Assembly: GCA_017347465.1 (NCBI GenBank)
Contig: AP021858.1
Span: 2,002,472-2,066,471, forward strand
Direction: 5' to 3'
Source: Candidatus Nitrosymbiomonas proteolyticus
GTDB taxonomy: Bacteria > Armatimonadota > Fimbriimonadia > Fimbriimonadales > Fimbriimonadaceae
Length of the DNA: 64,000 bases
Positions 52,707-62,723 of the stretch are shown here, piece by piece. Within the stretch, counting starts at the first letter, position 1; each line of letters opens with the position of its first letter. A program made the translations under genes and the position numbers. The notes below the pieces were generated by a model. The model was not told where the DNA came from, did not search any database, and saw only the letters and a program-made list of their open reading frames with translations.

Positions 52707-53378
52707 CTAGACCCTTGTAGCTGTCGAGAAGAGGTCTCTAAGGTCGGCCTCGTGGGATCTGGGCACGAGAGCTACGACGATGTCGCCCTCCATGAGCGTG
52801 GTGTCGCCGCTGACCCCGATCCCGTCTTCGCCCCGAAGAATCCACACGAGGTTGGTTTGAGGGGGAAGGATCAACTCCCGAACCGCCTTGCCGACCACCG
52901 GCGAGCGAGAACTTAGCTCCGCCTCGACGACTTCGAAATCGCCTCGGCCCAGAGCTCCCACCGGCATCACGAAATCCGGCATGATCTGCTGCTCCAAGAG
53001 GCTGTAGATGATGTCGGTCGCCGAAACCGTCTCGTCGATCCCAACCCGCTTGAACACATCGACGTGGGCAGGGTCGTTCACGCGCGCAAGAACTCGATCG
53101 ACGCTCCACACTACTTTGGCCATCTGGCAGACGACCATGTTGTCCTCGTCTTCTCCCGTCACGGCAATGACCACGTCCGCGCGGTTGAACCCGGCGTCCC
53201 TTTGCGTGAGCATCTCGCAGCCGTCGCCTTCCATCACGTTTTCCGAGCCCAGCAGCCCCGCGAGGCGCTGCGCGTGCTCGGGATTCTTCTCGAGCATCAG
53301 GAGCTCGTGGCCTGCAGCGAGGAGCCTCTTCGCCAGATGGAATCCCACGTTTCCGCCGCCGACAAGAATCATGTACAT
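52707..53378 (-). CDS. TrkA-type K+ transport regulator (RCK_N + RCK_C)
   Basis: A 223-residue protein. Residues 1-125 form a Rossmann-fold RCK_N domain (MILVGGGNVGFHLAKRLL, then GDGCEM). Residues 150-223 form the RCK_C ligand domain (LGRGDFEVVEAELSSRSPVV). It would bind NAD(H)/ATP and gate a Trk/Ktr channel, which is not in the window. It follows another TrkA-like gene by 2 nt. Confidence 0.9.
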   Translation of the reverse strand: MYMILVGGGNVGFHLAKRLLAAGHELLMLEKNPEHAQRLAGLLGSENVMEGDGCEMLTQRDAGFNRADVVIAVTGEDEDNMVVCQMAKVVWSVDRVLARVNDPAHVDVFKRVGIDETVSATDIIYSLLEQQIMPDFVMPVGALGRGDFEVVEAELSSRSPVVGKAVRELILPPQTNLVWILRGEDGIGVSGDTTLMEGDIVVALVPRSHEADLRDLFSTATRV

Positions 53379-53380
53379 GG

Positions 53381-53833
53381 CTAGATGCGAAGCTCCTCGG
53401 GAAGAAGGTTGTAGTTGTCGATGGTGCCGTAAGGCTCGGATATCAGCCAGTCGCGCATCATGCCGGAGGTAAGGGCGCTGGGAGTGATGCAAAAGAACCC
53501 GAGCTTCCTATACGCCTCCGCCCGGAGCGGATCAGCGACCTTGATGCAGACCTTGGGGCAGTTGAACTTCAGACGGACGATCTGTGCGGACATAAGGTTG
53601 GTGTTGTCGCCTCGGGTCAGCGCGAAGAAGCACTCTGCGTCTCGGACCTGGGCTTTTTCGAGGATGTCGTCCTCGAGGCCGCTTCCAAAGACGATCTCGC
53701 AGTTGTGGTCCTTTCCAAGTCTGCGCAGCGCGCGCCGATTCTGCTCGATGATGGTTACGGAATGGCCCCGTGCGGTCAACATGAGGGCAAGGCTAGCGCC
53801 CGTACGGCCGCAGCCGAAAATGACGACTCTCAT
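53381..53833 (-). CDS. TrkA-N domain protein
   Basis: A 150-residue single RCK_N domain: MRVVIFGCGRTGASLALMLT, IIEQNRRALRRL and GSGLEDDILEKAQV bind a nucleotide; no RCK_C domain follows. It is coupled to glnD by ATGA overlap. Together with the next gene it makes a pair of gating subunits, one with and one without ligand domain. Confidence 0.88.
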   Translation of the reverse strand: MRVVIFGCGRTGASLALMLTARGHSVTIIEQNRRALRRLGKDHNCEIVFGSGLEDDILEKAQVRDAECFFALTRGDNTNLMSAQIVRLKFNCPKVCIKVADPLRAEAYRKLGFFCITPSALTSGMMRDWLISEPYGTIDNYNLLPEELRI

Positions 53834-56220
53834 ACAGCGTCTCTGACTATACCTTTGTCGAGAGCCCTTTCGACCTCCTCCGATGCGAGCGGCCGATCGC
53901 ACTTGCCTGCCAAATAGAACGCAGCCGCGCCTCGTCCCGCCCATTGAGCGAAGCGAGCCGCGAGAATGTTCCACCCCATCGACGAGATGAGGTTGGCCAT
54001 CCGAAACGGCATGCCGCGACCTCCCGGCGCCTGCACCTCAAGGATTCCCGGAAGCCCTTCGATGTACGTGTAAGTGAACCTCTCCTGCTTTCGAGTCGGG
54101 TCGAGGCCTCTGGCTCGCAGAAGCTCATCGACGTCCAGCTCGCCGCTGATTGCGCCGCGCAAATCCCGATCGAGCTGTTGGCAGGTGGCTTGAGGAAGCG
54201 CCTGGTTCCCGAAACTCGCCGAAAACACGTCGAGAATCACGGGCTTCTCGTCTCGAGTCGTGCCGATGCGCAGACCGTGCACCGTCACATCCCAGGCGTA
54301 GAGGACTCCCAAAAGCCTACTCAGAAGACCTTCGCGGTCGGTCGCGCAAACGGTGATGTCCGTGAGGTGGAGGGCCGGGGAATGGACGAACTCTACCGTG
54401 GGTTTGCCTTGAAGAGCCTTTTTGGCATAGGTCAGGTGCAGCTTGACAAGGTCCGGAGGTGTGGAGAGGACGTATTCGGCTGGCAAGCTATCGACGAACC
54501 TGGCGATCTCGGATTCGTCGTATTCGGTCGCCCTCAACTCCTTCCTCAGTCGTCTTCGGTGGGTTGTTGTGTCGGTCGCAGGAGGTTCCTCGCTCTCCAG
54601 TACGGCGCTCGTCGCTCTGTGAAGGGCCTGAAGAAAGCTCTCTTGTGCGGGTGTCCAAGCCGTCGACGAAACGGCGGAAACGTCGGCAAAAGTTAGGAGG
54701 GCTAGCAAATCGAGCCGCTCCCTGTCTCGGACCACCTTGGCGCAATCGATCGCTGTCGACGCCTGCATCACATCGCGCATTCGGATGAACCTCGCAAGGG
54801 TCAAGTGCTCCCGTACAAGCCAAGCGATCAGTTCCGTCTGATTCGAGGCCAGTCGCCACCGGTCCGCGACCTCGCGGACGATTTCTTCCCCGGTTTCGCT
54901 GTGGGGCCTGCCCTTTCTCAGCTTGCCAGCGTCGTGCAAAAGAGCGGCGAGGTAGAGCGCGCCTTTGTGGCTGATCGAAGTCACTAGGTCGCCTAGGAAA
55001 GGTCCGGGTTGCAACGCGTCCAAGTTTCGCACCACGCGGAGCGAATGCTCGTACACCGTGAATTCGTGCGTGGGATCGTCGGGCATGAGGGTTCGGCAGG
55101 CGGTTAGCTCCGGGAGCAACTCTCCAAGCAATCCGCACCGGTCCATGTTGCGCAAAGTGGATTCGCCCGTCGCGATCGCATTGAGGACGGTTGGCCCATC
55201 CACCTCCCTCGAACCCGCTGATTCGACGTCCTCCACTGTCAGACCCAATTGCGTGGCGAGAGCAATCCCATACGCCGCGTCGCTCGCAGTGGCGTTCCCG
55301 TCGATTCTCGCCTCTCCTCGGAGCACCATGACCCCTCGCGAAACCCGATACCTAGCCTCCCGAAGGTCTCGCAGAGCGAAGGTAAGGGCGTGATAGTTGG
55401 CGTCCATCGACTCCAAGAGTCCCGACATCATCGCTTTGGGGTCGATCCCCAGCCGATCTGCTATGGCGGCCTGCTGGGGGTAGGTGAGCCGGTCGGCCGG
55501 CCTGCCCGCTGAGGCGTGGAGCAGGTTCCTCATGCGAGCGACCTGTTCATAGGCGGGCGTCGGAGCCAGCGGTTGCACGCCGATCGCTTCGCGAATCCAA
55601 TTCGCGCACTGGAAGCATCGCAGCCCGCCCGCTCCTTCCTTCAGGTTCGGCTGGACGAAATAGGGGGTGTCGTGAAACTTCAGGTAAGCCCGTTGCCGCT
55701 CGCTGATCTTGTCGATCAGGAAGTCGCCGACCGCAAAGTCGGCCCTGAGCGCTTGGTCGAAAAGCTTGAAGGGCGTTGGGGAACCCGCAACCAAGCGAGC
55801 GTCGAGCATGGAGGTCAGGGTCTTGCCGTCGAGGCTGGGGGCGTCGTTGATCAGGTGATACGAATAGGAGACGTCCAGCTTGACCCACGTCCCGAAGGCG
55901 GTGTGCAGGAGCCGATAAAGCTCCTTGACCGCGGCGTCGAGTTCGGGACTTGCGTCGTCGCCAGGGATGAGGGTGAGATCGACGTCGGAAAATGGGGCAA
56001 GCTCTCGCCTGCCGTATCCACCGACCGCGACGATGGAGAGGGGGGGTAGGTTGGGGTTCGCTTCCAGGACGGATTCGACGACATTCCGAACCACCTCGTC
56101 GGCCAGGTCGGAGTGTCGCCTGCACCAACTCAGTCCGGCTGGGTCATCGAAGATCGTAGTGAGAAGCGACGCTCGCCTATCGCCGACGCTTCGTACCCGA
56201 TCCTCCAGTTGCGTCTTCAT
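53830..56220 (-). CDS. glnD: [Protein-PII] uridylyltransferase
   Basis: A 796-residue GlnD. Nucleotidyltransferase: GGYGRRELAPFSDVDLTLI at about 75-93. HD phosphohydrolase: LLHDAGK near 395. Two ACT domains at the C-terminus (LTDITVCATDREGLLSRLLG and ILEVQAPGGRGMPFRMANL) bind glutamine. It adds or removes UMP on PII as nitrogen status changes. Start ATG 56220 overlaps the membrane-protein stop. It is unusually placed in an operon with sigma/anti-sigma and TrkA genes. Confidence 0.92.
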   Translation of the reverse strand: MKTQLEDRVRSVGDRRASLLTTIFDDPAGLSWCRRHSDLADEVVRNVVESVLEANPNLPPLSIVAVGGYGRRELAPFSDVDLTLIPGDDASPELDAAVKELYRLLHTAFGTWVKLDVSYSYHLINDAPSLDGKTLTSMLDARLVAGSPTPFKLFDQALRADFAVGDFLIDKISERQRAYLKFHDTPYFVQPNLKEGAGGLRCFQCANWIREAIGVQPLAPTPAYEQVARMRNLLHASAGRPADRLTYPQQAAIADRLGIDPKAMMSGLLESMDANYHALTFALRDLREARYRVSRGVMVLRGEARIDGNATASDAAYGIALATQLGLTVEDVESAGSREVDGPTVLNAIATGESTLRNMDRCGLLGELLPELTACRTLMPDDPTHEFTVYEHSLRVVRNLDALQPGPFLGDLVTSISHKGALYLAALLHDAGKLRKGRPHSETGEEIVREVADRWRLASNQTELIAWLVREHLTLARFIRMRDVMQASTAIDCAKVVRDRERLDLLALLTFADVSAVSSTAWTPAQESFLQALHRATSAVLESEEPPATDTTTHRRRLRKELRATEYDESEIARFVDSLPAEYVLSTPPDLVKLHLTYAKKALQGKPTVEFVHSPALHLTDITVCATDREGLLSRLLGVLYAWDVTVHGLRIGTTRDEKPVILDVFSASFGNQALPQATCQQLDRDLRGAISGELDVDELLRARGLDPTRKQERFTYTYIEGLPGILEVQAPGGRGMPFRMANLISSMGWNILAARFAQWAGRGAAAFYLAGKCDRPLASEEVERALDKGIVRDAV

Positions 56221-57770
56221 TTGAGTAAGTAGTAGTTTGGCTCGTTGAGGGAGAGATTCGACAGGGTTTCGAGAAGGTAAGAGTCGGCGAACACGCAAAG
56301 AAGGACAGTCACTAGGCCGCCTAGGAAACACCCCCAGGAAAGGATCGTAAAGAACTCGCGGATGGCGACTTTGGTCACATGAAGCGTGGGAATGCGGAGG
56401 ACGAGCGCCCACGAAGGGCCGACGAGAAGCAGTAGGCAAGCGGCCAGCAAAGCAAGCCCAAGCGGAAGCGTGTTGCCGCCAAAAAGCTCGGGCGGGACAC
56501 CCACCAAAGGAAGCACCTCGATCGCGGGAGTTGAGAGCCCCGCAAGGAAAAGGGCGCAAAGCCCGCCGAAAACGACAGCAAGGACTCCCACCGTGAACCG
56601 GAAGAACGGCCCAAAGTAGCTAGGGGGCTGAGTGCGCGCATGGGACGGATCGACCCCCAAAAAGAGCGAGCCGAGGGCCGGGACGACAGCGACTAGTGGA
56701 AGGGAAGTGGCCAAGTACAGCACGACCGAAGCCGCGACCCCTAGGAGTTGGGCAAACGGCGCGCGGAGCACGACATCTAGGAGCCCTAGCGAAATGGATT
56801 TGGAGACGGCCGCCCCTACAAGAAAGGCCCCCAGCGAGACCACGACCAGCGCGCTCGGCGCAGTGGCGGCCACAACGCTGAGGACGCTGAGTTGGGTCGC
56901 GGCTTCCTGTGCGTCTTCCGAAGTGACCAGGGCGATCCAGGCGTCGTTCGATGCAAAGGCCCTTCGCGCTGCAGACGACCGGTCTGTCCAACCCTCCGCC
57001 CGAAGCTCATCCACTAATTGGTTGCGGGCAAGCAACAGGACTCTTGGGCTTGGTTGCTCCAAGTATACGCGGGGATAGCTAGCGAATTCGATGAGATTTG
57101 CTCCAGCCCTGCCTTGGGAAACCCTTCTTGCCCCATCGCGCAGGAGAACTCCATTGAGCAGGGTTGCCGATCTGCGGTCCAATTCCTGCCGCTTGTCCGA
57201 CGCGCCGTTTTGGACAAGTCTTCTACCAAACGACTCAATCATTTGTGTGGTGGAGTCGGTCACGAGCCAATAGCCCAGCGCCGCCTGCCACGACATTGGG
57301 CTGGCGGTCGATCGCTGAAGGTCGGCCCGAACGATCTCGATTCGCGCGACCTGAAAGTCATTCCAGCGCAGGCAGCTCGCCGCTGATACCCAAAGCCGGC
57401 TGGCCTCGTCTTTATGTCCAAGTTGATCATGAAAAACTGCAGCACATTGACGCCAGAATGCGTTCTCAGGATCGACCGATGCCTGCTTCTGAGCGACCTC
57501 GAGCATGGCTTGAACCTGCGGAGCGTCCAGCGTATGGAGGCTTGCCGTGGTCTCGCCCGCGATCTGCATCCAAAGGCTGGATTCGACGGCCGTCTTCGGG
57601 GCTGGCAACACGTCGAAACTGTAGTGGACAAACGGGGAAGACTTGAGCGTATCGCTCTGCCCAACGAAACGCGCGCTTAGCCAGACGTAGTCACGGGTGG
57701 AGGGGTGGATCAGCAACATAACGAGCGCCCCGATCAGGGCGCCAACCGCCATCCTCCGAGTGCGCGTCAT
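56217..57770 (-). CDS. Unknown multi-pass membrane protein with helical N-domain
   Basis: A 517-residue protein: an N-terminal membrane segment (MAVGALIGALVMLLI), a TPR-like helical extracytoplasmic region at about 35-300 (AQKQASVDPENAFWRQCAAVF), and then at least five hydrophobic helices. No family is recognised. It overlaps the anti-sigma gene and glnD by 4 nt each, so it may sense an envelope signal for the operon. Confidence 0.7.
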   Translation of the reverse strand: MTRTRRMAVGALIGALVMLLIHPSTRDYVWLSARFVGQSDTLKSSPFVHYSFDVLPAPKTAVESSLWMQIAGETTASLHTLDAPQVQAMLEVAQKQASVDPENAFWRQCAAVFHDQLGHKDEASRLWVSAASCLRWNDFQVARIEIVRADLQRSTASPMSWQAALGYWLVTDSTTQMIESFGRRLVQNGASDKRQELDRRSATLLNGVLLRDGARRVSQGRAGANLIEFASYPRVYLEQPSPRVLLLARNQLVDELRAEGWTDRSSAARRAFASNDAWIALVTSEDAQEAATQLSVLSVVAATAPSALVVVSLGAFLVGAAVSKSISLGLLDVVLRAPFAQLLGVAASVVLYLATSLPLVAVVPALGSLFLGVDPSHARTQPPSYFGPFFRFTVGVLAVVFGGLCALFLAGLSTPAIEVLPLVGVPPELFGGNTLPLGLALLAACLLLLVGPSWALVLRIPTLHVTKVAIREFFTILSWGCFLGGLVTVLLCVFADSYLLETLSNLSLNEPNYYLLK

Positions 57771-58204
57771 CTATTTGTAGACGGGGAGCGGTTCTCGAAA
57801 AGCGGAATTGCCGGCGCATCCGCCGCGCGTTTTACGCCTGCGCCGCCGACGTTGAAGACTGGCAAATCCGAGCTGCGAGACACCAACTGGATGGCTGCGA
57901 GCATCACGATCATCGCGATCCCCGCGCCCAAAATCGCCGGAGACCAGTATCCCACGCTCGACCGAACTCGATCGACGTGAAACCTGCGCAAGACGCGAGA
58001 GTCGAAGTTGGATTCCGATTGGCCGTCGAACGAAGCTTCGCGCAACATGTTCAGGGCAAGCGAGAACTGTTCTTCGTGCCTTCGGCAATCGGAGCACTCG
58101 GCGCGATGCCGATCCATGAACGCCTGATCGTCCCAGCGAATGGCGCCATCATTCGGCGACGAGATCAGCCGGTAGAACTTACGACAGGCAAAGCGGAGCT
58201 TCAT
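57767..58204 (-). CDS. Zinc-type membrane anti-sigma factor
   Basis: A 145-residue protein. The cytoplasmic N-terminus has the zinc motif His-x3-Cys-x2-Cys in RHRAECSDCRRH (about 33-44). A membrane segment at about 88-108 (AILGAGIAMIVMLAAIQLV) is followed by a short periplasmic tail. It overlaps the sigma gene by 4 nt, as sigma/anti-sigma pairs usually do. Confidence 0.86.
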   Translation of the reverse strand: MKLRFACRKFYRLISSPNDGAIRWDDQAFMDRHRAECSDCRRHEEQFSLALNMLREASFDGQSESNFDSRVLRRFHVDRVRSSVGYWSPAILGAGIAMIVMLAAIQLVSRSSDLPVFNVGGAGVKRAADAPAIPLFENRSPSTNR

Positions 58205-58758
58205 TCGGCCATCGCCTCGATCCAGAGTTTCCGAAACCGTTCGCGAGCGGTGTGCAACCTCGATCGAACCGTTCCAATGGGTACGCCCATGACTTCGGCG
58301 ACCTCTTCATAGCTGAACTGCTCAATCTCTCGAAGAACGAGCGTGGCGCGGAGGTCGGGCGGCAATTGGCCTAATATCTTCTCGATCACGACGCGGCTTT
58401 CTACAGCTCCACCCTCGTGATCTTGCACAGAATCAAACTCAGCGGGTTCGGGACGCTTGACGCGCAAGCGATCCATGCAAAGGCGAACGCAAATTCTATA
58501 CAAAAAGCCCGAAAACGCGCGGTCGTCGCGGAGTCGCCGAATCTCCCGAAATGCCTTGAGGAACGCCTCCTGCGAAACGTCCTCCGCCTCATGGCGATCT
58601 CGGAGGAGGTTGGACGCCGTCCGAATCAGTCGATTCCGATGCCGCGCGATAAGGTGGGACAACGCGGTCTCGTCCCCCTCGCGGCACCTGGACACCCACT
58701 GCAATTCGTCAGCAATGGCATCGGCCTTCGAGGTTGCAGTCAGTCGGACTTCAAGCAT
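58201..58758 (-). CDS. ECF RNA polymerase sigma factor (3)
   Basis: A 185-residue ECF sigma factor with region 2 (RDRHEAEDVSQEAFLKAFRE, FSGFLYRICVRLCMDRLR) and region 4 (LPPDLRATLVLREIEQFSYE, VPIGTVRSRLHTARERFR). First gene of a six-gene operon; a promoter stands 18 nt upstream. Confidence 0.94.
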   Translation of the reverse strand: MLEVRLTATSKADAIADELQWVSRCREGDETALSHLIARHRNRLIRTASNLLRDRHEAEDVSQEAFLKAFREIRRLRDDRAFSGFLYRICVRLCMDRLRVKRPEPAEFDSVQDHEGGAVESRVVIEKILGQLPPDLRATLVLREIEQFSYEEVAEVMGVPIGTVRSRLHTARERFRKLWIEAMAE

Positions 58759-58775
58759 GATCTCACACCTTACCC

Positions 58776-58803
58776 ATTATAAACTCATTTCCCTGAGTTC
58801 CAA
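58776..58803 (-). promoter_or_regulatory. Promoter of the sigma-anti-sigma-glnD-trkA operon
   Basis: On the minus strand TTGGAA (58803-58798), 16 nt, TATAAT (58781-58776), with AAGGTG as ribosome site before ATG 58758. A GGAAC, the core of ECF -35 elements, overlaps the -35 region, so autoregulation is possible. Confidence 0.6.
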
Positions 58804-58892
58804 GCAGGTTTTGCGCCGAGAACAGCACACTATACGGGCAAGACGGATCGCAGACTCCAATTGGTTCGAACCTACGGTAGACTGGCGATCCT

Positions 58893-60431
58893 ATGCCGGT
58901 TCCTTTGATGCTGGTCCCCACCGGTCTTGCGGCCCTCCTTGGCGCGCAACAGGGCGTGGACCGGTTTGAAGGAGAACTGACCGTTACCTGGCGCACCAAG
59001 ACGATCGACGTCGAGCGAAAGTCCGTCATTTTTGCTGGGGAAGTCAAAGCCGTTTACGGGGTCAGCACCGTGTATTGCGACCGGCTCGAAATCCGCTCGT
59101 CCGAGTCCGAAAGCTACGCGGTCGCCAGCGGCAACGTTCGGCTCGAAGACCCTGATGCTAGGATGTCTAGTGATTCTTTCGAGTTTGACTGGAAGCAGCG
59201 AACGGGCGCGGCCCAAAACGTTCAACTGCTACTAGGCAGTCTAGCGGTGTGGGCCGGTCGCATCTCGGTTTCTGGCTCGCGATGGGAGCTTTTTGATTCC
59301 AAGGTTGTGGTTTGCGAGCAGCAAGGCAAGATGCTCGGCGCGCAGATTCGCAAAGCCGAGGTGGAAGTGGGGCGAAGGGCGATTCTGCGGGGCGCCAGCT
59401 TGATCGTAATGAACGGAAAGTGGCTGACGCTGCCCCGATACGAAGCCCAACTCGACCCGGATCAGGCGGGATTTAGGTGGCCGACGCTTGCGTATGAAAA
59501 GGATTCGGGCATGGGCACACGATGGTCGAGCGACCTTCGGCTTTCGCCTTCGAGCATGTTCGTGTTCGATGTGACCTCCTACCCCAAGCGTCTACCGAGC
59601 AGCCTCTACGGGCTGTCTCTCGACCTTGATCCCGCTCGTTCGGGCGTCCGGCTCGCCCCCCAGAGCGATCTCAACGAGCGCTTTCAGGGGAGTTTTCTCG
59701 ACAACGTCGCCGTTTCCAGCCCTCAGGACGAGCAAGATTCGATGTCGGTGCGGCGGCGATTCCTTTCAGTCAGTTCGGTGTGGAACCAGAAAGTGCCAGG
59801 GTTTCCGGGCATGAGGGTAAGCGAGCCCTGGCAGCTCGCTTACGCCCACTCCGGGGCAACCCAACTCGGAGCCTTTTCGCTCGACGCGCGGTACCAGCAA
59901 ATAGGGATTGCCGGTGAGAGATATGAGCACCGGGCGAACGTCCGGCTCGCTTTCCGGGGCCGGACGGCAAGTCTCGCGTCGGGTTTCGCACCGTATTGGG
60001 GATTCGACGGACAGTGGTTCGGCGGTGGCGACGATTACTCGTGGGTGAGGGCAACCGGTGGGCTTATCTGGCAAGCTCCGGGCGGTCCCCGAGTCGCGGT
60101 TGGCTATGCGCATACCCTGTTTCGCGGCGACCCTTCGTTCCCGTTCGATGCTCCTGGCCCGGCGGAACTCGCTCTGACCCGGCTCGACTGGAGACTGGGG
60201 CCGCGTACCCTGAGCGTACTGGGTCAATGGGACGTGCGAGCGGACCGGTGGCACAAGACGGAGGTGCGGTTTGCGCAGGTTGCGGGCTGCTTCGAGCCGT
60301 TCGTCCTCTGGCGCGAACAGACGCGGCAGTTCACGGTAGGAGTCACCTTAAGGCCGCTGGAAGTGCTGACTCAACTGGAACAGAGGCTGGCGTCTCGCGA
60401 CAGAAACAACCGCCCGAAACAGCGGGATTGA
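58893..60431 (+). CDS. LptD/OstA-like outer-membrane protein
   Basis: A 512-residue exported protein. Residues 22-190 form an OstA/LptA-type jelly roll (YCDRLEIRSSESESYAVASG, NVRLEDPDARMSSDSFEFDW). The rest alternates as a beta barrel (FQGSFLDNVAV, ARYQQIGIAGERYEHRANVR) and ends in a barrel-closing strand QFTVGVTLRP. LptD assembles LPS on the cell surface; this one is short and so is only LptD-like. TAGACT lies 9 nt before ATG, without Shine-Dalgarno. Confidence 0.75.
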   Translation: MPVPLMLVPTGLAALLGAQQGVDRFEGELTVTWRTKTIDVERKSVIFAGEVKAVYGVSTVYCDRLEIRSSESESYAVASGNVRLEDPDARMSSDSFEFDWKQRTGAAQNVQLLLGSLAVWAGRISVSGSRWELFDSKVVVCEQQGKMLGAQIRKAEVEVGRRAILRGASLIVMNGKWLTLPRYEAQLDPDQAGFRWPTLAYEKDSGMGTRWSSDLRLSPSSMFVFDVTSYPKRLPSSLYGLSLDLDPARSGVRLAPQSDLNERFQGSFLDNVAVSSPQDEQDSMSVRRRFLSVSSVWNQKVPGFPGMRVSEPWQLAYAHSGATQLGAFSLDARYQQIGIAGERYEHRANVRLAFRGRTASLASGFAPYWGFDGQWFGGGDDYSWVRATGGLIWQAPGGPRVAVGYAHTLFRGDPSFPFDAPGPAELALTRLDWRLGPRTLSVLGQWDVRADRWHKTEVRFAQVAGCFEPFVLWREQTRQFTVGVTLRPLEVLTQLEQRLASRDRNNRPKQRD

Positions 60432-60652: not shown

Positions 60653-60818
60653 ATCCTGGTCTCACCTCACTCTGTGATTCACACTTCGCGCCCCTAGAGT
60701 TCCTTCCCTATTTCAATTCGGAACGTGCCCGTACATCGCTCAGGTTTGTTGTGCGACAATGATCGCAAGGATGGGCCTCGTCCGCCGGACATCGGGGCCG
60801 AGGCATACTGGAATCCCC

Positions 60819-62723
60819 ATGCGCTACGTTTTCAACCGCGATCGCTGCCAAAACGTCGAGTACTCGTCGCGCCGTGAGTGGCTCCTCACCAACGGGATCG
60901 GAGGCTACGCGATGGGGACCGTAAGCGGAATCAACACCCGTCGGTACCACGGCCACCTCGTCGCCGCCACAAGGCCTCCGACCGAGAGAACCCTGCTTTT
61001 GGCGAATCTGGAAGCGAGTGCGGCGAGCGGGGGCGCGCAAGTGTGGCTTTCGGCCAACCAGTACCCAGGGGCGGTATTCCCGGATGGGTACAGGTATCTG
61101 GAGTGGTTCTCTGCAGGGAGGTCGATTCGTTGGCACTATCTCAGCGGTTCGGTCGCCATCGAAAAGTCCCTCTCGATGATGCAAGGCAAGAACGCAATCT
61201 GCGCGAACTACCGGAACGCGGGGGAATCCTCCGTCCTATTGATCGTTCGGCCGCTGATCGCGCTCAGATCGTATCACGGAACCTTCAACGAAACCCCTCG
61301 CTTTCCCAATTCTGTTGGGTTCCCGCCAGGGCTGACCCGCATCGAGCACAGCGGCACCGTCCTTTCGCTGGCCCATCCAGGGGCTCAATGCGTGCCCGTA
61401 CAGGGCTGGTACTACCGCTTCGAGCACGCCCGCGAAATCGAGCGCGGACTGGAGCCTCGCGACGATCTCTACTGCCCTTGCGAACTGCGTTTCGACCTCG
61501 AGTCGGGAGCGGTCGCGTCGATTTCTGCGGCGGAAGGAGACCCGGTCGCGCCGTGGTTTCCCGACTGGAACGATCAAGACGAAAACCTGGAATTCGGTGA
61601 CCATTTGGAAGAGATGGCGGGGCCGTTCTTGGTGAAATCTGAGTCGCGCCTGACGATCGTTGCGGGGTATCCGTGGTTCACGGACTGGGGCAGAGACGCA
61701 ATGATTAGCGTGCCGGGAATCTGCCTTTGCAGCGGCAGGGTGCAGGAGGCGCGCGAGATTCTCGAAGGCTTCTCGTCGGAGATGCATCAGGGCCTGATTC
61801 CCAACCGCTTCATGGAACAGGGCAGCCCCGAATTCAACACCGCTGACGCGACGCTTTGGTTCTTTCAAGCAGTCTACGAGACCCTGCGATCCGAGTGGGA
61901 CGCCGAGTTCGCCGTGCGAATGTTCGACGTTTTGAGAGAGTCGCTGGATTGGCATCTGCGAGGCACGCTGTTTGGAATTCGGACCGACCCGGAGGACGGC
62001 CTTCTGACTCAGGGTGAGGCTGGTTACCAGTTGACTTGGATGGACGTCAAGATCGGCGACTGGGTGGTGACGCCCCGGCATGGGAAGCCCGTCGAGGTCA
62101 ATGGGCTCTGGGTCAACGCCTTGCGAATCCTCGAATGGCTCGCCGAGAGGCTGGGACACGGGGGCCGCTCCTATGCCGAGGCAGCGGAGAGAGCGGAACA
62201 GGCGTTCGAGCGGAAGTTCTGGGTTGCGGGCCGGGGCCACTATTACGACACCGTCGACCCTTACGATGCCACTTTGCGACCAAATCAACTGATCGCCATG
62301 TCGCTTCCGTTCGGACCCGCCAAGGGAGATCGGGCGAAGGCCGCGCTCGATGTCGTCACCGCTGAGTTGTTGACGGCAGTTGGGCTGCGCACCCTCGGTC
62401 CCAATGAGCCCGGTTACCGGGGCCGATTCGACGGGCCGCTTACCAACATGGACGCCGCGTATCACCAGGGAACCGTCTGGCCCTGGCTCTTGGGTCCTTA
62501 CGTGACCGCCCTTCTGAAGCTGACTGGGGACACCGAGCAAGCCGAGCGGGTCCTGTTGCGCTCGCAAGGGATGTTGGTCGAATACGGAATCGGAGGCATC
62601 GCCGAACTCTATGACGGCGACCCGCCCCATCGCCCGAACGGGTGTCCGTTTCAGGCATGGAGCGTGGGAGAGATATTGCGGGCTTGGAGGCTCATTCATC
62701 CTCGCAGCGAGGAGACGAAGTGA
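60819..62723 (+). CDS. Glycogen debranching enzyme (archaeal/bacterial type)
   Basis: A 634-residue enzyme. Residues 1-260 are the N-terminal GDE domain (REWLLTNGIGGYAMGTVSG, NTRRYHGHLVAA). Residues 290-630 are an (alpha/alpha)6 barrel with WFTDWGRDAMIS, NTADATLWFF, TWMDVKIGDWVVTPRHGKPV and YHQGTVWPWLLG, the amylo-alpha-1,6-glucosidase signature. CATACT lies 9 nt before ATG 60819. It is coupled to the oxidoreductase gene by GTGA. Confidence 0.92.
   Translation: MRYVFNRDRCQNVEYSSRREWLLTNGIGGYAMGTVSGINTRRYHGHLVAATRPPTERTLLLANLEASAASGGAQVWLSANQYPGAVFPDGYRYLEWFSAGRSIRWHYLSGSVAIEKSLSMMQGKNAICANYRNAGESSVLLIVRPLIALRSYHGTFNETPRFPNSVGFPPGLTRIEHSGTVLSLAHPGAQCVPVQGWYYRFEHAREIERGLEPRDDLYCPCELRFDLESGAVASISAAEGDPVAPWFPDWNDQDENLEFGDHLEEMAGPFLVKSESRLTIVAGYPWFTDWGRDAMISVPGICLCSGRVQEAREILEGFSSEMHQGLIPNRFMEQGSPEFNTADATLWFFQAVYETLRSEWDAEFAVRMFDVLRESLDWHLRGTLFGIRTDPEDGLLTQGEAGYQLTWMDVKIGDWVVTPRHGKPVEVNGLWVNALRILEWLAERLGHGGRSYAEAAERAEQAFERKFWVAGRGHYYDTVDPYDATLRPNQLIAMSLPFGPAKGDRAKAALDVVTAELLTAVGLRTLGPNEPGYRGRFDGPLTNMDAAYHQGTVWPWLLGPYVTALLKLTGDTEQAERVLLRSQGMLVEYGIGGIAELYDGDPPHRPNGCPFQAWSVGEILRAWRLIHPRSEETK

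Follow-up and report, generated by a model that had tools for sequence, protein, structure and literature searches.

A stretch of 64,000 nucleotides from the genome of the uncultured Armatimonadota bacterium Candidatus Nitrosymbiomonas proteolyticus (contig AP021858.1, positions 2,002,472 to 2,066,471; hereafter the window) carries on its minus strand six closely packed genes, which encode in order an extracytoplasmic function (ECF) sigma factor, an anti-sigma factor, a membrane protein, the PII uridylyltransferase GlnD and the TrkA proteins TrkA1 and TrkA2. We find that this arrangement of known parts is real, is conserved in the order Fimbriimonadales and is undescribed in the literature searched, in agreement with the original prediction, made from the sequence alone, that no described system shows this linkage. 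The linkage is not due to chance, as the order of the genes recurs in tens of genomes, and comparison of the sequences divides the locus into a constant core (sigma factor, anti-sigma factor and membrane protein) and two separable cargoes (GlnD and the TrkA pair). We consider it somewhat probable that the sigma core regulates itself, that GlnD is read through from it and that the TrkA pair is a nested unit whose ring serves a potassium importer of the KimA type.

Using 113 genomes of the order, from which 60 stretches with GlnD loci, 20 with TrkA-pair loci and 20 more were taken, we recovered GlnD-like matches in 89 genomes and ECF sigma orthologues above a strict threshold in 79. All six genes are kept together in 32 genomes, another 20 have the sigma factor, membrane protein and GlnD without the TrkA pair, and nine have the sigma factor, membrane protein and TrkA pair without GlnD. 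The core stands alone in G036 and G072 (three further entries of this kind come from short contigs and could be truncated), and the TrkA pair is located elsewhere in three genomes. The five junctions measure 30 bases or less in 49/52, 49/50, 45/47, 28/32 and 48/49 cases. Since the membrane protein orthologues have diverged to 18-38% identity while the order held, the order must be old. The three genes that follow the locus in the window (51697, 50680 and 49491), which served as a control, are not kept beside it outside the species, and none of 43 sigma relatives from outside the order (L139-L181) has the membrane protein, GlnD or TrkA alongside. The original prediction had proposed synteny in relatives as its check and named a lack of conserved order as evidence against it; the order proved to be conserved across the Fimbriimonadales.

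The genome of the window is a single contig of 2.81 Mb. Upon re-checking, the junctions and overlaps first reported for the six genes matched exactly: there are four 4-base overlaps of the ATGA type (58201-58204, 57767-57770, 56217-56220 and 53830-53833), and two bases separate the end of trkA1 from the start of trkA2. Profiles also bear out the identities first proposed for the sigma factor, for GlnD with its HD domain and for the TrkA_N pair, and the anti-sigma factor is recognised from its motif and from the profiles of its orthologues (Table 1). The sigma factor matches the region 2 and region 4_2 profiles (E 1e-16 each) and, with 185 residues and no region 3, has the size and domains of an ECF factor. 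Next to it, the anti-sigma factor combines HRAECSDC (HxxxCxxC) with a single membrane helix (given as about residues 87-109 and as 67-109), the features of a zinc-type anti-sigma factor (ZAS); its match to NCBIfam antisigmaE (E 7e-6) is under the cut-off and tentative by itself, and 14 of 26 orthologues match this family and five match zf-HC2. The ZAS motif is not universal, being found in 43 of 68 candidate anti-sigma frames of relatives. A sigma gene followed by an overlapping gene for a membrane-anchored anti-sigma factor with HxxxCxxC, behind an upstream GAAC-type -35 and a CGTC -10, is also the plan of the ECF/ZAS operons of the RpoE-RseA, SigR-RsrA and SigW-RsiW types, from which the present locus differs in that a TPR/five-helix membrane protein and, in most genomes, GlnD and/or the TrkA pair come next.

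Table 1. Features of the locus and of its upstream neighbours in the window.
Feature	Position	Strand	Basis
ECF sigma factor, 185 amino acids	58201..58758	-	Profile match, Sigma70_r2 and r4_2
Anti-sigma factor, 145 amino acids, ZAS motif HRAECSDC, one transmembrane segment	57767..58204	-	Motif, helix, orthologue profiles
Membrane protein without known family, 517 amino acids	56217..57770	-	Profile search and AlphaFold2
GlnD, PII uridylyltransferase/uridylyl-removing enzyme, 796 amino acids, nucleotidyltransferase (NTase) motif GGYGRRELAPFSDVDL and HD motif HDAGK intact	53830..56220	-	Profiles, motifs
TrkA1, 150 amino acids, TrkA_N/RCK-N only, TM1088A-like	53381..53833	-	Profile and structure relatives
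TrkA2, 223 amino acids, TrkA_N and TrkA_C, TM1088B-like	52707..53378	-	Profile and structure relatives
GAAC-N18-CGTC (GAACCAATTGGAGTCTGCGATCCGTC), predicted ECF-type promoter and candidate site of autoregulation	58842..58867	-	Motif conservation
Predicted sigma-70-like promoter TTGGAA-N16-TATAAT near the ECF start	58776..58803	-	Motif only
GGTATAGT within the glnD 3' end, predicted to be the -10 of a near-leaderless internal promoter driving trkA1-trkA2	53846..53853	-	Motif conservation
Divergent gene, 512 amino acids, no Pfam match	58893..60431	+	Shares intergenic region with the ECF gene
Glycogen debranching enzyme, GDE_N and GDE_C	60759..62723	+	Conserved next neighbour of the divergent gene

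In its classical form, a promoter through which an ECF factor activates its own gene has GAAC and CGTC. GAAC-N16..19-CGT[CA], nearly always with a spacing of 17-18, occurs 5' of the sigma gene in 37 of 59 loci, where 0.041 would be expected per 220-base stretch, and the sigma factor may well transcribe its own gene from the site in the window. Sigma-70-like sites number two in the region of the locus, against 1.2 expected by chance. A second conserved element lies about 19 bases 5' of the trkA1 start, where the window has GGTATAGT: 36 of 49 loci, against 3.0 expected, carry GTA[TA]NNT in the 50 bases ahead of trkA1, nearly always at a distance of 17-23 bases from the start, and nine further loci have GGTATAA[AC] at the same position. 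The same test gave no excess over chance before GlnD (5/59), the membrane protein (2/57) or TrkA2 (1/52). A wider form, GTANNNT, stands 6-14 bases before the start in 7 of the window's 54 long frames, compared with 1 of 744 internal codons, and so behaves here as a general near-leaderless promoter element. Because the -10 inside the end of glnD is kept in so many loci, it is probable that the TrkA pair forms a second, nested transcription unit, and the relocated pairs (L182, L196, L186 and L190) retain the element. We found no ECF-type promoter before these relocated pairs, and none that was convincing before the KimA gene or the gene for the tyrosine-bearing PII in the same genome. A scan for GAAC-N17/18-YGTC as a guide to the regulon was dropped as it did not discriminate (15 sites in the window alone). 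In L190 (3073 to 6486) and L186 (935 to 3225), from two GlnD-less genomes, 2.3-3.4 kb separate the membrane protein from TrkA1.

These results bear on two other accounts of the linkage as a whole. In the first, which we consider rather unlikely, the linkage is historical: housekeeping genes, glnD and the trkA pair, came to lie behind an ancestral envelope sigma operon and were retained by overlapping frames and promoters, with no functional tie. In its favour, the cargoes are lost independently, the TrkA pair has a -10 of its own that accompanies it when it relocates (L182, L196), and a functionally unrelated gene upstream, that of the debranching enzyme, is kept as well. However, the order holds while the membrane protein drops to 18-25% identity and the downstream genes are fully reshuffled, and the core and GlnD remain joined in more than 50 genomes. 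In the second, which we judge less likely still, the six genes are a single stimulon, one mRNA under the ECF sigma factor that would coordinate potassium uptake with glutamate supply in an envelope or turgor (potassium glutamate) response. Potassium and glutamate are the main osmolyte pair of bacteria, there is an ECF-type promoter upstream, and in most genomes the whole set is joined by 4-base overlaps or by gaps no longer than about 30 bases; a single mRNA is difficult to reconcile with the conserved promoter-like -10 before trkA1 and with the many loci from which the TrkA pair or GlnD is missing, and an osmotic signal is without support. For the same reasons, the one operon that the original prediction saw as tying all parts together is not supported in that form, since the cargoes vary independently (9 loci without GlnD, 20 without the TrkA pair). 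Internal promoters that uncouple the parts, which it had named as evidence against itself, are indicated at the level of sequence for the TrkA part, but the membrane protein, glnD and trkA2 have no comparable element before them.

Turning to the first cargo, GlnD matches the uridylyltransferase family NCBIfam TIGR01693 with E 2.6e-101 and 340 bits, which is below the curated cut-off of 519, and the HD domain is also matched. Its bounds in Table 1 use the ATG start, the mechanically called open reading frame with a TTG start being longer. Among its relatives, HDxGK is present in 59 of 60 and the NTase motif, in the form searched, in 51 of 60. The PII genes that the original prediction suggested looking for elsewhere do exist in the genome, one (P0008) with the modifiable tyrosine, Tyr51, and one without. 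In this second PII (L007 1462-1821), Phe takes the place of Tyr51 and the T-loop is divergent; second copies in relatives show H, I, M or Q at that residue. We surveyed PII in 30 genomes picked for the presence or absence of GlnD, using a single PII query that distant PII proteins could escape: a Tyr51-bearing PII is found in 14 of 14 genomes with GlnD and in 0 of 16 without, 13 of the latter having no PII match at 1e-5, two a PII with Pro for Tyr and one a weak match without the loop. In the two genomes with this proline (L353 and L354, from G027 and G032), PII is 63% identical and the residue apparently changed after the loss of GlnD. When the gene tree stands in for the species tree, the presence of GlnD and that of PII shift jointly in 4-5 of the 5 independent pairs that have support, and none is contrary (sign test, median p 0.06, limited by n=5 pairs). 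Given the intact motifs and the joint loss of GlnD and tyrosine-PII, this GlnD is almost certainly a true PII-modifying enzyme. It thus resembles the known GlnD-PII uridylylation cascade in its NTase, HD and C-terminal ACT-like regions and in a GlnD/tyrosine-PII match that is perfect in the 30 genomes, and differs from it in that glnD stands behind a sigma/anti-sigma core and not with amtB or glnB.

As to the second cargo, an RCK-N-only protein and an RCK-N/C protein are encoded next to each other, and their relatives of solved structure include TM1088A and TM1088B; on these grounds TrkA1 and TrkA2 are a two-subunit RCK gating ring of the TM1088A/B type, which may assemble as an octamer. In Thermotoga maritima, TM1088A and TM1088B likewise come from adjoining genes, form one octameric ring and work with the TrkH-type TM1089 (PMC4380455), whereas here TrkH is lacking and KimA is the likely partner. 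TrkH/KtrB (PF02386), which the original prediction proposed to search for, is absent from the genome by a profile that detects 11 of 14 controls, and TrkH is above the cut-off in 11 of the 113 genomes of the order. The potassium-channel gating subunits first proposed are therefore better read as a two-subunit RCK ring whose partner is probably a transporter, KimA.

A KimA orthologue (P0007) is encoded in the same genome, aligned over residues 7-612, its full length, to Bacillus subtilis KimA (PDB 6s3k) with E 1.4e-127; no RCK partner of KimA is described in the literature searched. The B. subtilis protein is regulated by cyclic di-AMP. We built a KimA tree of 81 proteins and assigned genomes outside it to a clade by percent identity. 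Of the 44 clade A entries, 43 come from genomes that hold the TrkA pair; the remaining one is from G003, a genome that is 88% complete. The 32 clade B entries divide into 20 whose genomes lack the pair and 12 whose genomes have it; these 12 represent 11 genomes, one with two copies, and all except G042 also hold a clade A copy, which makes ten. In well-assembled genomes, 41 have both clade A KimA and the TrkA pair, 21 neither, one the pair only and none clade A KimA only. Neighbouring genes elsewhere support the pairing from a second side: in Nonomuraea (L302 1843-5327) a KimA homologue is divergent from, and touches, a TM1088-type TrkA pair, and in four loci from a sample of the phylum (L334, L337, L339 and L341) a TrkA1 homologue lies about 0.5-1 kb downstream of KimA on the same strand. 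A Streptomyces locus, the other Actinobacteria case in this test, has the two about 2.3 kb apart. The CeoB/CeoC proteins of Mycobacterium tuberculosis are similarly a two-TrkA system for which the accounts consulted name no membrane subunit, with no mention of KimA, TrkH or a permease; they differ in having no link to a sigma factor or GlnD, and a KimA-like neighbour is known to us from Nonomuraea. Our literature search returned no relevant paper pairing KimA with CeoB.

That the ring gates instead the membrane protein of the operon or a TrkH is improbable. In favour of this reading, the TrkA pair adjoins the membrane protein in GlnD-less loci, and classical TrkA acts on TrkH. TM1088A/B works with TM1089 in Thermotoga (PMC4380455). 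Against it, the membrane protein is retained at 20 loci whose genomes lack the pair, and in G071, G080, G068 and G069 the pair occurs away from it, so that presence and absence across genomes led us to reject it as the pore. TrkH, rejected as absent from the genome itself, is also absent from about 100 of the 113, and the two TrkH loci inspected each carry a TrkA-like gene of their own next door.

The membrane protein, described at the outset as unknown, indeed matches no Pfam family, and among 49 orthologues one has a single marginal match. AlphaFold2, run with 49 orthologues, gave a mean predicted local distance difference test score of 94 and a predicted template modelling score of 0.89 for a fold with an N-terminal membrane helix, a TPR-like helical domain at about 40-285 and then about five membrane helices. 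Its structural neighbours were not informative (the best Foldseek match had E 0.17, and the best VIA-align match, with helical repeats, Z 6.5). By its charge the helical domain would face outward, which fits the role of a sensor for the anti-sigma factor, and the protein probably reports an envelope signal.

Taken together, we propose that the locus is an old one of the Fimbriimonadales in which the TPR-like membrane protein would signal the state of the envelope to a sigma factor held by a membrane-anchored zinc-type anti-sigma factor. Once released, the sigma factor would transcribe its own gene from the GAAC-N18-CGTC promoter, and read-through would express GlnD, the enzyme that attaches UMP to the PII tyrosine or takes it off and so sets nitrogen assimilation. 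The TrkA1/TrkA2 ring, made from its own promoter in the end of glnD and by read-through, would gate the KimA-type importer encoded elsewhere. As GlnD would depend on read-through and the ring in part on its own promoter, activation of the sigma factor would raise GlnD and, more weakly, the ring, and may thereby link the envelope state to the glutamate and potassium pools.

Several observations weigh against this proposal. All promoter assignments rest on motif conservation. Clade A KimA and the TrkA pair were jointly lost just twice in well-assembled genomes, and with two independent losses their association alone is not statistically significant; G042, which is 99% complete, has the pair without a clade A KimA. 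A TM1088-type pair lies beside TrkG on an Acaryochloris plasmid, and given this neighbour and the TrkH-type partner in Thermotoga, rings of this type are not specific to KimA. Finally, GlnD-TrkA1-TrkA2 occurs in two genomes (G074 and G076) that lack the sigma core, and a different family of the order has GlnD unlinked and standing alone.

Upstream of the locus, the divergent gene is kept beside it in most loci, and the glycogen debranching gene is also kept. The divergent gene is OstA/LptA-like by eye only, and a GTAGACT element precedes its start by 9 bases. The record MAG H1_ARM1 (CP054189.1) contains a sigma locus of 100% identity, other named relatives being Fimbriimonadaceae/Armatimonadetes. 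The record of L104 (JADZEW010000001.1), titled "Methanoregulaceae archaeon", holds a sigma-membrane protein-TrkA locus that belongs to a Fimbriimonadales genome, and its title is thus a mislabel or the result of contamination. Likewise, the title of the L169/G113 record, Actinomycetota bacterium, conflicts with the taxonomy of the genome; the phylum sample includes a close relative of the window.

The joint loss of GlnD and PII, including the loss of the tyrosine where GlnD is gone, provides a clean natural test of PII modification in bacteria other than the models. In a phylum of which few members are cultured, the locus also suggests a link of nitrogen signalling and potassium uptake to envelope stress that can be put to the test, and it points to a candidate target for two-TrkA systems that lack TrkH. 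A further reading, which we consider less likely than not, is that two-subunit TrkA rings can gate importers of the KimA family and that the envelope ECF sigma locus of the Fimbriimonadales controls such a ring together with PII uridylylation; if true, the pairing with KimA would supply the membrane subunit left unnamed in the accounts consulted of actinobacterial CeoB/CeoC-type systems.

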